Below are positions 52,965 to 57,134 of a DNA stretch of 64,000 nt, in pieces; position 1 is the first letter of the stretch; each line of letters begins with the position of its first letter. The stretch spans positions 62,001 to 126,000 of the forward strand of contig NZ_QEKW01000001.1 of assembly GCF_003096675.1 (NCBI RefSeq), in the 5' to 3' direction. The notes beneath the pieces were generated by a model, which saw only the letters and a program-made list of their open reading frames with translations, did no database searches and was not told the origin of the DNA. The DNA is from Actinomycetospora cinnamomea (GTDB lineage: Bacteria; Actinomycetota; Actinomycetes; Mycobacteriales; Pseudonocardiaceae). Position numbers and translations under genes: made by a program.

Positions 52965-53630
52965 ATGCGTGTAACCGTGGCCGGGGCGGGGGCGGTCGGC
53001 CGGTCGATCGCCGCCGAGCTCGTCGAGGCCGATCACGAGGTGATGCTCATCGAGCGCGACCTCGCCCAGGTGGAGCCCGAGGCCGTGCCGCAGGCCGAGT
53101 GGGTGCACGCCGACGCCTGCGAGCTCGCCTCGCTGGAGGAGGCGCGCCTGCAGGGCTGCGACGTCGTCATCGCGGCCACCGGCGACGACAAGGTCAACCT
53201 CGTGGTGTCGCTGCTGGCCAAGACCGAGTTCGCGGTGCGGCGGGTCGTCGCGCGCGTCAACGACCCGCGCAACGAGTGGCTGTTCACCGACGCCTGGGGC
53301 GTCGACGTGGCCGTGTCCACCCCACGCATGCTGGCGGCGATGGTCGAGGAGGCCGTCAGCGTCGGCGACCTCGTCCGCCTGCTGACCCTGCGGCAGGGCA
53401 CGGCCAACCTCGTCGAGGTCACGCTGCCCGCCAACACCCCGCTCGCCGGGAAGGCGGTGCGCGAGGTGCCCCTGCCCCGCGAGGCGGCGCTCGTGGTCAT
53501 CCTGCGCGGCGGCCGGGTGATCGTCCCGCAGGCCGACGACCCCCTGGAGCCGGGCGACGAGATGATGTTCGTCGCGGGCGAGGACGTCGAGGAGGAGATC
53601 CAGCGCGTCCTCAAGGGCGAGCCGGCCTGA
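52965..53630 (+). CDS. ceoC: TrkA family potassium uptake regulator (CeoC-like)
   Basis: The 221-residue protein has VAGAGAVGRSIAAELVEADHEVMLIERD at its start and GDDKVNLVVSLLAKTEFAVRRVVARVND. An RCK-C domain is at 140-221 (NLVEVTLPANTPLAGKAVREVPLPREAALVVILRGGRVIVPQ). The stop TGA at 53628-53630 is followed after only 5 nt by the inner edge of an IS110-family element. Its original 3' neighbour was the convergent DUF3159 gene. Confidence 0.92.
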   Translation: MRVTVAGAGAVGRSIAAELVEADHEVMLIERDLAQVEPEAVPQAEWVHADACELASLEEARLQGCDVVIAATGDDKVNLVVSLLAKTEFAVRRVVARVNDPRNEWLFTDAWGVDVAVSTPRMLAAMVEEAVSVGDLVRLLTLRQGTANLVEVTLPANTPLAGKAVREVPLPREAALVVILRGGRVIVPQADDPLEPGDEMMFVAGEDVEEEIQRVLKGEPA

Positions 53631-53704
53631 GATGCTCCTATGCCTGGTCAAGAGGTGAGGACGCGGTGTATCTCGCGGGCTAGGTAGCGCTTGAGTTCCC
53701 TGAG

Positions 53705-54913
53705 TCAAGTTGCTGATGTTGGTCGGTCGCGGCGTGCGGCGTGTGTGGCCGGGTCGTAGGGGTTGCCGGTGTGCCAGCAGGCCCAGATGACGCGGAGCCA
53801 GGCGCGGGCGACGATGCGGATGGCGTGCGGGTTGCGTTTGCCCCGTCGGCGAGCGTTGGCATAGAGCTCGCCAGCCCAGGGTGACTGCAGGCGGGCGTTG
53901 TGGGCGAAGGTGGTGAGGGCCTGGCGGGCTCTGCTGTTGGCGGCGTAGCGGAAGTAGACCCCCGAGCTCTTGCCGGAGGCCTTGGTCACCGGAGCGGCGC
54001 CGCACTCGGTCGCGGCCTGCTCGGCGCTCTCCACCCGGTCGAGGATGGGACCGAGCTCGGCGAGCAGCTGAGCGAGGTTGATCGTGCCGACTCCGGGCAG
54101 CCCGGCCAGCAGCCGGGCTCGGGGGTGGGCGGCGACGCAGCCGGCGATGCGCTTCTCGATCTGGGCGATCGTGGCCTGCACCGCGTTCAACAACTGGATC
54201 TGGGCGGTGATGATCGCGCTCAGTGTCGTGGAGGGCAGGCCGACCGGCGCCACCGGTGCCGCCCGCAGACGAGTCAGCAGCTGTTCGGGGGTCTTCGAGC
54301 CGCGGTAGCCATGGCGTCGGCAGAACGCGGCCATGCGGGCTTCGCCGAGCCGCGCCGCGGAGTCGGGGGTGGGGTAGTCGGTCAGGAACGCTCGGGCGAT
54401 CGGGGAGCCCAGTGAGGTGAACAGATCACGCGGCCCGGGCCAGTGCGCCTCGAGAGTGGCGGTGAGCTGGTTGATCGTGGCGGTGCGCGTGCGCACCTGG
54501 TCGTCGCGCAGCCGCACCAGCGCCTGCAGCTCCCGTAGCCCGGCATCGGTGGGCTCCAACCGGCGCAGCCGGTGTCCGTCGGTGCGCAGGTAGTCGGCGA
54601 GCTTGTAGCTGTCGCCGGGGTCGGATTTCGCTCCCGCGGCACCCCAGCGCGGTCGGGCGGCGTAGAACGCGGTGGGATGCACCGGAACCACCGGATGCCG
54701 GGCCCCGAGCAGCCGGTCCACGACCAGCCCGCTGCTCTTCTCGATGATCACCGGTAGCTGGTCGGGGTCGCCGTGGCGGCGCAGCCGGTGCAACGTCGCC
54801 GCCCAGCCCGCCTCGGTGTGGGCGAAGGACCAGCGCTCGACGACCGCACCGCTGTCCTCGAGCACCGTGACGTCGTGGGTGCGACTGGCCCAGTCCCAGC
54901 CGACATAGCGCAT
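53705..54913 (-). CDS. IS110-family transposase (inner element)
   Basis: The intact 402-residue recombinase has an N-terminal DEDD RuvC-like domain: VGWDWASRTHDVTVLED, PVIIEKSSGLVV, and GAKSDPGDSYKLADYL. A coiled-coil middle follows, then the C-terminal Tnp domain with LLAGLPGVGTINLAQLLAEL and the serine region CGAAPVTKASGKSSGVYFRY, ending in FRYAANSRARQAL. All catalytic positions are present, so the element could still move. Its left leader encodes the presumed guide RNA. Sequence identity with the outer transposase is low, so the two belong to different subgroups. Confidence 0.94.
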   Translation of the reverse strand: MRYVGWDWASRTHDVTVLEDSGAVVERWSFAHTEAGWAATLHRLRRHGDPDQLPVIIEKSSGLVVDRLLGARHPVVPVHPTAFYAARPRWGAAGAKSDPGDSYKLADYLRTDGHRLRRLEPTDAGLRELQALVRLRDDQVRTRTATINQLTATLEAHWPGPRDLFTSLGSPIARAFLTDYPTPDSAARLGEARMAAFCRRHGYRGSKTPEQLLTRLRAAPVAPVGLPSTTLSAIITAQIQLLNAVQATIAQIEKRIAGCVAAHPRARLLAGLPGVGTINLAQLLAELGPILDRVESAEQAATECGAAPVTKASGKSSGVYFRYAANSRARQALTTFAHNARLQSPWAGELYANARRRGKRNPHAIRIVARAWLRVIWACWHTGNPYDPATHAARRDRPTSAT

Positions 54914-55149
54914 CTGGCCTCCCGATCGAGCCGTGTGGTTGGCTCGGCGGTGTCGAGGCCCTTCGCCGGTTCCTCATTGTTCGGCCCTCGGTCGGGCATG
55001 TCCCTAACGCCGGTCAAGGGTCTCGGCGCGTCGGAGGTGGCAGGACTCAAACTGGCCATCACCTGGCGAGGCAACGGGGCCATCCCCCGACGCGACCGCG
55101 AGCCACGGCCGGGGCTCGTCCCCGGCCGCCGCCCGATACTTGCCCAATG
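54914..55149 (-). ncRNA. Presumed bridge RNA of the inner IS110 element
   Basis: The 236-nt leader between left end and transposase holds four guide-like segments in the order known for IS621. The left target guide CCGTTGCCTC (55077-55068) is identical to the left target at 55158-55149. The right target guide GTTTGAG (55052-55046) pairs with target CTCAAGC with one G-U. The segment AGGGA (55005-55001) matches the right end AGGGAA. The right donor guide CAATGAG (54979-54973) pairs with the left end CTCATTG. The exact RNA ends are not visible. Confidence 0.78.
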
Positions 55150-56177
55150 AGGCAACGGATGATCTCTAGGTTGCTCAGTCCCTGTGTTCGGCGGCGCGCG
55201 GCGTAATCCCGGGTCGGTTGGTGGGCCGAGAGTCGGACCAGGGCGATGATGTGCAGCGCATAGTTGGCGTGTCGGTCACCGCCGCGATTGAGCCGGTGGC
55301 GGGTGGTGCGCCCACTGCTGGCCGGCAGCGGTGCGGTGCCGCAGAGCTGGGCGAAGGCGGCTTCGGAACGCAGCCTCTCGGGGTTGTCTCCGGCGGTGAT
55401 CAGTAGCTGGGCGGCGACCTCGGTGCCCACGCCGTAGACGGCCAGCAATGCCGGGGCGGTGGCCGCGACCAGTGGCCGCAGCTCGGTGTCGATGTCGTCG
55501 ATCTCCTCGCGCAGCGCGGTGATCCGGCGAGCCAGCCGACGCAGGGTCAGCTTCGTCGCCGCGGTCACGGGGTCGGCGAGCTCGGCCAGCCCACGGTTGG
55601 CACGTAGCCGCCGGCAGGTCTCCAGCAGCTCGCGGGAACTCTGCCCGGCCAGCGCCTGGCGCAGCTCTGCCGGCCCGGTGAGCACGAGCGCCTTGAGCTG
55701 GTTGATGGCCTGAGTGCGGGCCTTGATCGCGCTGCGCCGAGCCACCCGCAACGTGCGGATCGCCTCGACCTGCCCGTCGCGAGTCTTCGGTGTGCCACTG
55801 GCCGTACCGCGCAGCACCGCGGCGGCGGCGGCGTAGGCATCGATCGGGTCGCTCTTGCCGCGCTGACGGCGGGTCGTGCGGTCGGGGCGGTCGACCTCGA
55901 TCACCACCTGCCCCGCTGCGCGCAGGTGCCGGGCCAGACCGGCGCCGTAGGCGCCGGTGCCCTCCACCCCGAAGGCACTCACCTGCCCATGGCCTCGAGC
56001 CCAGACCAGCAACTGCTCATAACCGGCCGGCGTGGTCGGGAACCCCGAGTCAGCCAGCGGCCGACCAACCGCGTCGATGACCGCGGCGTGGTGGATGTCG
56101 CTGTGGGTGTCCACCCCGACCGTCACGTGAATCGCCGCCGGTGTGACATCCGGGCTTGTGCTGGTCATGCTCGTCAT

Positions 56178-56405
56178 GTCGTCTCCCGCTCACACCGGTG
56201 ATGGCGACGCGCGGCCGGGCGGGCTGGTCGGACAAGACAGTGACGGGCGCCTCTGGCACAGGCTCCTATGAGGTCACGGCCACCCGCCCGGACGTGCGCA
56301 ACAGCGCCACCGGGAGCCGCCGACAGATCTCAGCCAAGACAGCTCTCGCGTCGGTCAGAACACCGGGTCAGACGACCCCCGATGACGCCAACACCATCCT
56401 CACTG
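56178..56405 (-). ncRNA. Presumed bridge RNA of the outer IS110 element
   Basis: In the leader before the outer transposase, CATAGGAGC (56270-56262) equals the right end at 53642-53634 (9 of 9). The reverse complement of GACAGTGA lies at 56243-56236 and pairs with the left end GACAGTGA (56407-56400, 8 of 8). These are the expected donor guides, 83-91 and 60-67 nt before the transposase, the same distances as in the inner element. Target guides are weaker: CTGA near 56331 and GAGC at 56314-56317. Confidence 0.65.
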
Positions 56406-57134
56406 TCAGGCCGCGCGGCTCCGGCGGGCCCCGGCGCCCCGGGACGCCGAGCGGCTGCGGCGGATCGCCCACACCGTCACCGCGGCGGCGAGCGCCGCCA
56501 GCGGCAGGCCCATGGCGAGTCGCACCCAGCCCAGCCAGGTGTCGGCGTACACCGAGTCGTAGAGCCACCGCTGGACGACGAAGCGCGCTCCGAACACCAC
56601 CACCCACGCCAGGGACGCGAGGTCGTAGGCGCGCAGCACGCGCTTGTCGCGGCGCCACTCCTGGCCCTCGCCGTTGACGAGATGCCAGATGACCCCGACC
56701 AGCGGGCGCCGGACGATCACCGAGAGCAGGAAGACCCCGCCGTAGAGCAGGCTCGTCCAGATCCCGAGCAGGAAGAAGCCCCGGGCCTCGCCGGTGCGCC
56801 ACGCGACGAAGGCGCAGACCGCGACGCCGAGCAGACCCGAGAGCGCCGGCTGCACCGCCTCGCCGCGCGCGAGCCGCCACCCGGCCACGAGCAGCGCCGA
56901 CAGGACGGCCGCGACGACGGAGGCGACGAGGTTGCCGGCGACCGCCTGGACGACGACGAACACGACGACCGGCACGCCCGAGGCGACGATCCCCGACAGG
57001 CCGCCCATCTGCTCGAGCAGGGTCGGGGTGCGCGGCTCGCCCTGATCAGCGGGCTCCTCCGCGGACGGCTCGTCCGCCCGCGGGGACCCCAGGACCTCGG
57101 TGGGGGGGTCGTCGCCGGGGCGCGGGACCTCCAC
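56406..57134 (-). CDS. DUF3159 membrane protein
   Basis: This 242-residue protein begins with an acidic Pro-rich segment. Six hydrophobic helices follow from about residue 40 (LSGIVASGVPVVVFVVVQAVAGNLVASVVAAVLSALLVAGW, then LLGVAVCAFVAW, FFLLGIWTSLLYGGVFLLSVIVRRPL). The conserved stretch VIWHLVNGEGQEWRRDKRVLRAYDLASLAWVVVFGARFVVQ marks DUF3159 (Rv2693c). The start is uncertain; GTG 57134 is the first reasonable codon. The stop codon TGA (56408-56406) lies exactly at the insertion point of the IS110 element and is preserved. Confidence 0.85.
   Translation of the reverse strand: MEVPRPGDDPPTEVLGSPRADEPSAEEPADQGEPRTPTLLEQMGGLSGIVASGVPVVVFVVVQAVAGNLVASVVAAVLSALLVAGWRLARGEAVQPALSGLLGVAVCAFVAWRTGEARGFFLLGIWTSLLYGGVFLLSVIVRRPLVGVIWHLVNGEGQEWRRDKRVLRAYDLASLAWVVVFGARFVVQRWLYDSVYADTWLGWVRLAMGLPLAALAAAVTVWAIRRSRSASRGAGARRSRAA

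Follow-up and report, generated by a model that had tools for sequence, protein, structure and literature searches.

An IS110-group element within an IS110 transposase gene

The window, a stretch of 64,000 nucleotides from Actinomycetospora cinnamomea, contains an IS110-group element that interrupts the transposase gene of another IS110 element, with both elements and all of the RNA features described below on the minus strand. The inner element spans positions 53696–55151 (1,456 bp including one CT core), as delimited by its junctions and by alignment of the joined flanks, which match uninterrupted relatives across the junction in all five loci tested. Read on the minus strand, the left target CCGTTGC with its CT (55158–55150) passes into the inner element, which begins CATTGGGC and finishes with CAGGGAA ahead of a second CT (53695–53694) that opens the right target CTCAAGC (53695–53689). 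As in the IS110 group, the element has a CT core (55151–55150 and 53695–53694) and no further duplication of the target. The outer IS110 transposase gene (55152–56177; PF01548 and PF02371) can be followed up to the codons for LEIIRC, is broken at a Leu codon and continues past the inner element as LKRYLAREIHRVLTS and a stop codon; this displaced 3′ end (53648–53695) is collinear with uninterrupted relatives. Two convergent genes, which end at 53630 and 56406 and are presumably TrkA-like and DUF3159-like, flank the outer element (window positions 53631–56405).

The inner transposase/recombinase (402 aa; 53705–54913) carries both domains of the IS110 group, DEDD_Tnp_IS110 (PF01548, 1.9e-28, residues 4–159) and Transposase_20 (PF02371, 2.1e-13, residues 267–351). 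It matches the IS621 structure 8wt6 at 8.3e-7, and in a phmmer alignment YESGSS of IS621 faces KASGKSS of the inner protein, where a candidate counterpart of S241, the catalytic serine of IS621, was matched by eye only. The layout of the ends is also that of the IS110 group, with a left leader of 236 nt, in which an RNA is predicted, and a stop codon only 9 bp away from the right core. The protein ends with IWACWHTGNPYDP and lacks the RCLKR motif that is considered below, so its own gene offers no target. The outer transposase frame reads on into the inner leader (55152–55059) and terminates with PRCLAR and a stop codon, because the copy of the left target guide is in frame with it and precedes a TGA; this read-on is probably a coincidence.

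Guides and structure of the predicted bridge RNA

Bridge RNAs of IS621 and the IS110 group have been described (Durrant et al. 2024, PMC11208160; Hiraizumi et al. 2024, PMC11208158), and the comparisons made here draw on parts of these two reports. The left-end leader of the inner element (54914–55149) is predicted to hold such an RNA on the basis of an alignment of 17 leaders and their structure, with a fold z of −4.0. A preliminary description of the locus had identified three guide-like segments in this leader, CCGTTGCCTC (55077–55068), GTTTGAG (55052–55046) and CAATGAG (54979–54973), and all three lie where it had located them. GUUUGAG, the right target guide (55046–55052), pairs with CTCAAGC at 7/7 positions, with one U–G pair at the wobble base of the Lys codon, and CAAUGAG, the right donor guide (54973–54979), pairs at 7/7 positions with the left end of the element itself, CTCATTG, both as proposed. 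The identity over 10 nt with the left target is exact, but the functional guide appears to be shorter. The two bases that follow the first eight are TC in the window and GA, GT, AC, GC and GT in the relatives L005, L006, L007, L008 and L028; as these bases vary among clade members, the left target guide is taken as the 8 nt CCGUUGCC (55070–55077), which pairs at 8/8 positions with the bottom strand of CCGTTGC and the following C and thus ends on the first core base. A left donor guide is likewise predicted, but the mismatched register AGGGA given for it earlier was replaced by GGGAC (55000–55004), one base over, which would pair with the bottom strand of GGAAC at the right end (53699–53695) with one G–T wobble. 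We infer this register by analogy with IS621, where the left donor guide likewise finishes on the first core base (A123–C130 to dG7; PMC11208158). The locus thus appears to hold a natural guide, target and donor set, as had been suggested, in which the guides of a predicted RNA match the flanks and the element's own ends.

Dinucleotide shuffles of the 236-nt leader were used to judge these matches. Among 20,000 shuffles, the exact 10-mer CCGTTGCCTC occurred in four and the three guides in the correct order, with G–U allowed, in one. Taken singly, a match to the right donor guide (G–U allowed) is common (5,643 shuffles), while matches to the right target guide (1,320) and the left target guide (620) are rarer.

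In IS621, each right guide is followed by bases that pair, once the strands have been exchanged, with the other DNA (PMC11208158). The corresponding first handshake base pairs in both loops of all 33 parsed elements. In the target loop, the base is U (55045 in the window) and position 7 of the donor is A, both invariant (33/33) and hence without covariation signal. In the donor loop, the base is G (54972 in the window) and faces target position 7, with G opposite C in 6/6 elements of the window clade and C opposite G in 27/27 sister elements, a single split at the level of the clades. The second handshake base of each loop, inspected by eye only, is generally unpaired.

The structure was modelled as the consensus of 17 leaders (the window and 16 relatives; alignment A1) in place of a published covariance model. 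The resulting structure of 47 pairs was drawn by hand from the RNAalifold result and a donor stem found by eye, and it includes seven pairs between the right donor guide and the left end. It comprises a 5′ stem-loop (55105–55128; A1 columns 24–49) with 91.2% of cells paired and 3/8 pairs changed on both sides, a target-binding loop (55022–55100) with stem arms at 55100–55079 and 55041–55022 and a terminal hairpin at 55067–55055, and a donor-binding loop (54962–55018) in which 55018–55010 form a stem with 54969–54962 and a hairpin occupies 54997–54984. Across the 17 leaders, helices 3–5 of the target loop have 96.6%, 99.3% and 100% of cells paired, and helices 6 and 7 of the donor loop have 91.1% and 100%. 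The target guides occupy an internal loop that is bounded by a stem of 16 pairs and a terminal hairpin of 4 pairs; the second loop contains the donor guides. This 17-leader consensus agrees with the order that had been proposed from the IS621 model, target loop first and donor loop second, and the two guides of each loop lie on opposite sides with the polarity of a bridge RNA.

Overall, 96.4% of cells in the 47-pair structure are paired, against a shuffled mean of 90.8% (0/500 shuffles), and both-side changes affect 13 pairs and 47 cells, against shuffled means of 8.0 and 16.0 (0/500 each). The count of further pair types (35 against 33.0; 79/500) does not exceed the shuffles. Sliding the structure by one to three columns lowers the paired cells to 30–48%. 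Unaided, RNAalifold recovers the pairing between left end and right donor guide, in which two both-side changes occur (U–A to C–G and A–U to G–C): the combinations are CTCATTG/CAATGAG in the window clade and CTCATTA/TAATGAG and CTCACTA/TAGTGAG in sister groups. In these sequences, the right donor guide therefore covaries with the left end at two positions; since the changes follow the groups, they represent few events.

Folding the leader had been put forward as a check on whether the guide segments lie in internal loops. The 17-leader consensus places them there, but in the minimum-energy fold of the window leader the left target guide is part of a hairpin of 9 bp (mean unpaired probability 0.16), and this fold is more stable than the consensus structure by 29 kcal/mol. 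In many of the 17 leaders, single-sequence folds leave the guides no more open than the leader average. When folded alone, the donor segment adopts the proposed form (z −1.4), and the target segment forms only the outer stem, with a competing hairpin within it (z −3.2). Single-sequence folding was thus uninformative to negative for these GC-rich leaders and was set aside as a test; the two loops expected of a bridge RNA are seen in the consensus, with which single-sequence folds disagree in part. A scan of 53600–56700 against Rfam 15, which may hold no bridge RNA family, returned only matches below the gathering scores.

Insertion sites of the window clade and its sister clade

The preliminary description did not recognise what the target is, namely conserved codons of IS110 transposase genes. 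All eight loci found for the window clade lie at the R-C-L/K-R codons (the slash marking the junction) of diverse IS110 transposase genes. Besides the window, these are L005 (a Mycobacterium MAG), L006 and L007 (Streptomyces), L008 (Sciscionella) and L028 (a Streptomyces plasmid), all five found by protein searches blind to the target, and L036 and L037, 5′-truncated copies on Streptomyces plasmids that came from a DNA search whose query carried 14–15 nt of flank and that may represent one event. The RCL/KR junction is seen on both sides in six loci and on the right side only in L036 and L037. Pfam supports an IS110 host in all four cases tested (window, L005, L006 and L028), and the remaining hosts were assigned by their translated tails. 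In keeping with the expectation that other insertions should have matching left targets, the six readable ones are CGTTGC, CGCTGC or CGATGC followed by CT, each with a fitting guide.

A common site might also stem from one insertion, if the nested pair were an old composite that has been inherited or moved as a unit rather than the product of repeated guided targeting. In favour of such an origin, every host is an IS110 gene, and those of L007 and L028 resemble each other fairly closely (73% over 85 aa). However, in five loci (window, L005, L006, L007 and L028) the inner elements are 71–95% identical, whereas the host C-termini are 38–73% identical; the inner proteins of L006 and L028 are 95% identical (183 aa) in hosts that share 51% (85 aa), and the window and L005 compare at 77% for the inner elements and 40% for the host C-termini. 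Uninterrupted relatives of the hosts also exist. On the comparison of inner and host identities, we reject the composite origin, which we consider very improbable, and these sequences point to independent RCLKR insertions. In a midpoint-rooted tree of 25 rows, from which L037, L010 and L028 are omitted, the six RCLKR rows lie on one side of a branch (100/99). A fragment, L010 (62% over 109 aa), has a right junction of the start-codon type described below, and we count it against the explanation preferred at the end.

Several of these loci have further features. In L005 (345–2750), a single open frame of 806 aa runs from the outer transposase through the leader and the inner transposase. Upstream of position 2261 in L008, the outer IS110 tail appears to have been invaded by a group II intron as well, and a frame that is presumably maturase-like ends just upstream of the GHREALRC codons. 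The RCLKR-inserted element of L028 (1379–3599) holds an annotated IS3-family insertion, so that three IS elements are nested at one plasmid locus.

Sister IS110 elements (L022–L027, L040–L051 and L102–L111) occupy the start codons of diverse genes, at ATGAGC or GTGAGC. The 25 distinct sister sets comprise 19 at ATG and six at GTG, with AGC following in 25/25. The left end of the element restores ATG, or GTG in L049–L051, and replaces the upstream region of the gene. One and the same sister guide, CGUGAG, serves four ATG starts and four GTG starts in two genomes. The twelve rows labelled as start-codon insertions likewise lie on one side of a branch (100/99) in the midpoint-rooted tree of 25 rows. 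L102 was assigned as a start-codon insertion by eye, and L012 (40%), also judged by eye, resembles one. IS900 was considered as a precedent for start-codon targeting and dropped, as the portions of the IS900 literature consulted contain no such statement.

Guide statistics were obtained from the 33 elements (30 distinct sets) that could be parsed among 54 loci inspected. The 21 unparsed loci are L009, L010, L012, L021, L036–L039, L052 and L091–L102; for the relatives at 53% or below (L009, L021, L038, L039, L091 and L093–L101), the patterns used left the junctions unresolved. In the 30 sets, 162/210 non-core positions of the left guides are paired, against a permuted mean of 106.3, and 148/180 positions of the right guides, against 110.6 (0/20,000 permutations each). 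The 25 sister sets alone gave 129/175 for the left guides (mean 101.3) and 124/150 for the right guides (mean 98.0), again with 0/20,000 each; all of these values are uncorrected for relatedness, and the permuted rows include several copies from one genome. The window clade alone, with five distinct sets and near-constant guides, gives the test no power (p 0.2 and 1.0). All 7 nt of the right guide pair in 26/30 sets, in 20 of them by Watson–Crick pairs only; mismatches occur in L008, L046, L103 and L110, the first of which also has a broken transposase. For the left guide, pairing extends over the last four bases in 25/30 sets and over all eight in 5/30. As far as these sequences reach, the guides covary with their targets across the sister clade.

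These data also bear on the possibility that a protein rather than an RNA recognises the site, with the identity between leader and flank due to chance or to captured sequence. In the window clade, neither guides nor targets vary much, so the two modes of recognition look the same there. The change of sister-clade guides with their targets, the rarity of three ordered matches in shuffled leaders and the published work on IS621, in the parts considered here (PMC11208160, PMC11208158), all argue against recognition by protein alone, to which we give very little credence.

Possible codon reading and its meaning for IS110 elements

Six guides of the window clade are readable. Opposite the third position of the Arg codon, five of them have U (targets CGT three times and CGC twice), and that of L008, where the target is CGA, has A. 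Opposite the third Lys position, U is present in 6/6, with AAA as the target codon five times and AAG once, in the window. A guide U at these positions means that synonymous codons would be tolerated by G–U pairing. From these few cases, the wobble-capable bases may have been selected rather than being accidental.

The target pattern CGYTGCCTCAARCG was searched for in 61 genomes, of which 18 contain 27 exact sites. By eye, on translated tails, 21 of the sites were classed as IS110 tails (several of them repeats of one element within one genome), five as lying elsewhere and one as unclear. The 14-mer itself shows no enrichment (27 matches against 29 for a backward control in the 61 genomes), and what stands out is solely that its sites lie in IS110 genes. 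The genome that contains the window has four CGNTGCCTCAARCG sites, each in an IS110 tail; three of them carry CGA, with which the U of the window guide would not pair.

An alternative is that the guide recognises a short sequence that mostly occurs in IS110 genes by chance, with no specialisation on them and with wobble bases that are accidental. The six of 27 perfect sites that lie outside or not clearly inside IS110 genes, the small number of readable guides and the three CGA sites speak for this explanation. In contrast, 8/8 insertions lie within IS110 genes, the variable codon bases pair in all six readable guides, and one sister guide serves at both ATG and GTG starts. We regard an absence of specialisation as rather unlikely, though it deserves more weight than the two alternatives above.

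The explanation that we prefer, and consider very probable from the sequence comparisons, is that the leader encodes an IS110-type bridge RNA with a target loop set to the RCLKR codons of other IS110 transposases. Once transcribed, the RNA would pair through its first loop with both target strands at the CT core and through its second loop with the joined ends of the element itself, and an active recombinase would insert the circular element at the paired site. The target loop would be set to the codons of a conserved motif close to the C-terminal end of IS110 transposases, R-C-L-K-R (CGY TGC CT/C AAR CG), and a guide U at the Arg and Lys third positions would accept CGT or CGC and AAA or AAG through G–U pairing. 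By reading these codons, the element could find a site wherever such IS110 elements occur. Insertion would remove the last residues of the host transposase, 15 in the window and more in other loci, and the outer transposase may thereby lose its function. The inner element is a single copy in its genome, which we count against this explanation with regard to mobility in the host, and a search of viral contigs for its relatives found none.

Insertion of a site-specific element into other mobile elements is not without parallel. IS4321 and IS5075 (IS1111 group), reportedly described by Partridge and Hall in 2003, are said to insert into the terminal repeats of Tn21-family transposons. The window element is similarly site-specific for mobile DNA, but whereas those elements target the terminal repeats of another transposon family, this one sits in transposase codons of its own family.

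In the parts of the IS621 reports drawn on here (PMC11208160, PMC11208158), IS621 shares with the window element a DEDD and Tnp recombinase, a CT core, a left-end bridge RNA (predicted here), the order of target loop before donor loop, the guide polarity, a left donor guide that ends on the first core base, tolerance of G–T pairs, which are reported for the target and donor duplexes of IS621 (PMC11208158), and a handshake base after each right guide. It differs in that its left target guide includes the T of the core, whereas that of the window element seems to stop with the first core base, and in that its right target guide has 4 nt rather than 7, although longer ones are reported for other IS110 elements; its target is also not the protein-coding motif of IS110 genes found here. 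IS1111 elements carry their RNA in the right end, according to the same reports. For IS1111 and IS110 elements with a seekRNA (Siddiquee et al. 2024, PMC11187229), an RNA from a non-coding region sets the target, as predicted here, and each element or group has its own target; the portions of that report considered mention no target in IS110 genes. The guides of Type I-F3 CRISPR-associated transposons for attachment sites are likewise aimed at conserved genes and tolerate changes at wobble positions, and a review, in the part consulted, names variation at these positions as a reason for mismatch tolerance (PMC11406308); there, a crRNA tolerates mismatches, whereas here G–U pairing in a predicted bridge RNA would serve. 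The mechanism itself, the IS110 bridge RNA, is thus already known, and the three 2024 reports cover it together with many targets. A search of titles and the beginnings of abstracts, with subscription papers and preprints outside its scope, found no description of IS110 elements that target IS110 transposase genes or of specialisation on the transposase genes of their own family.

Taken further, the window clade could be a specialised parasite of IS110 elements, a proposal to which we give an even chance. Its members would read RCLKR at the codon level with wobble-capable bases, follow IS110 elements from host to host, trim a competitor's recombinase and perhaps hitch-hike on outer ends that can be mobilised in trans, all of which might benefit the element, and their closest relatives would read start codons by the same rule.

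The locus offers a natural set of guide, target, donor and handshake bases together with naturally reprogrammed relatives, in an actinobacterial recombinase group that is remote from IS621 and might serve as a tool. Our findings suggest that an RNA-guided element can become specialised for recombinase genes belonging to its own family and that wobble pairing can confer tolerance of synonymous codons, comparable to the mismatch tolerance envisaged for CRISPR-guided transposons. The question of what bridge RNAs hunt, and why, thereby becomes testable by sequence survey.
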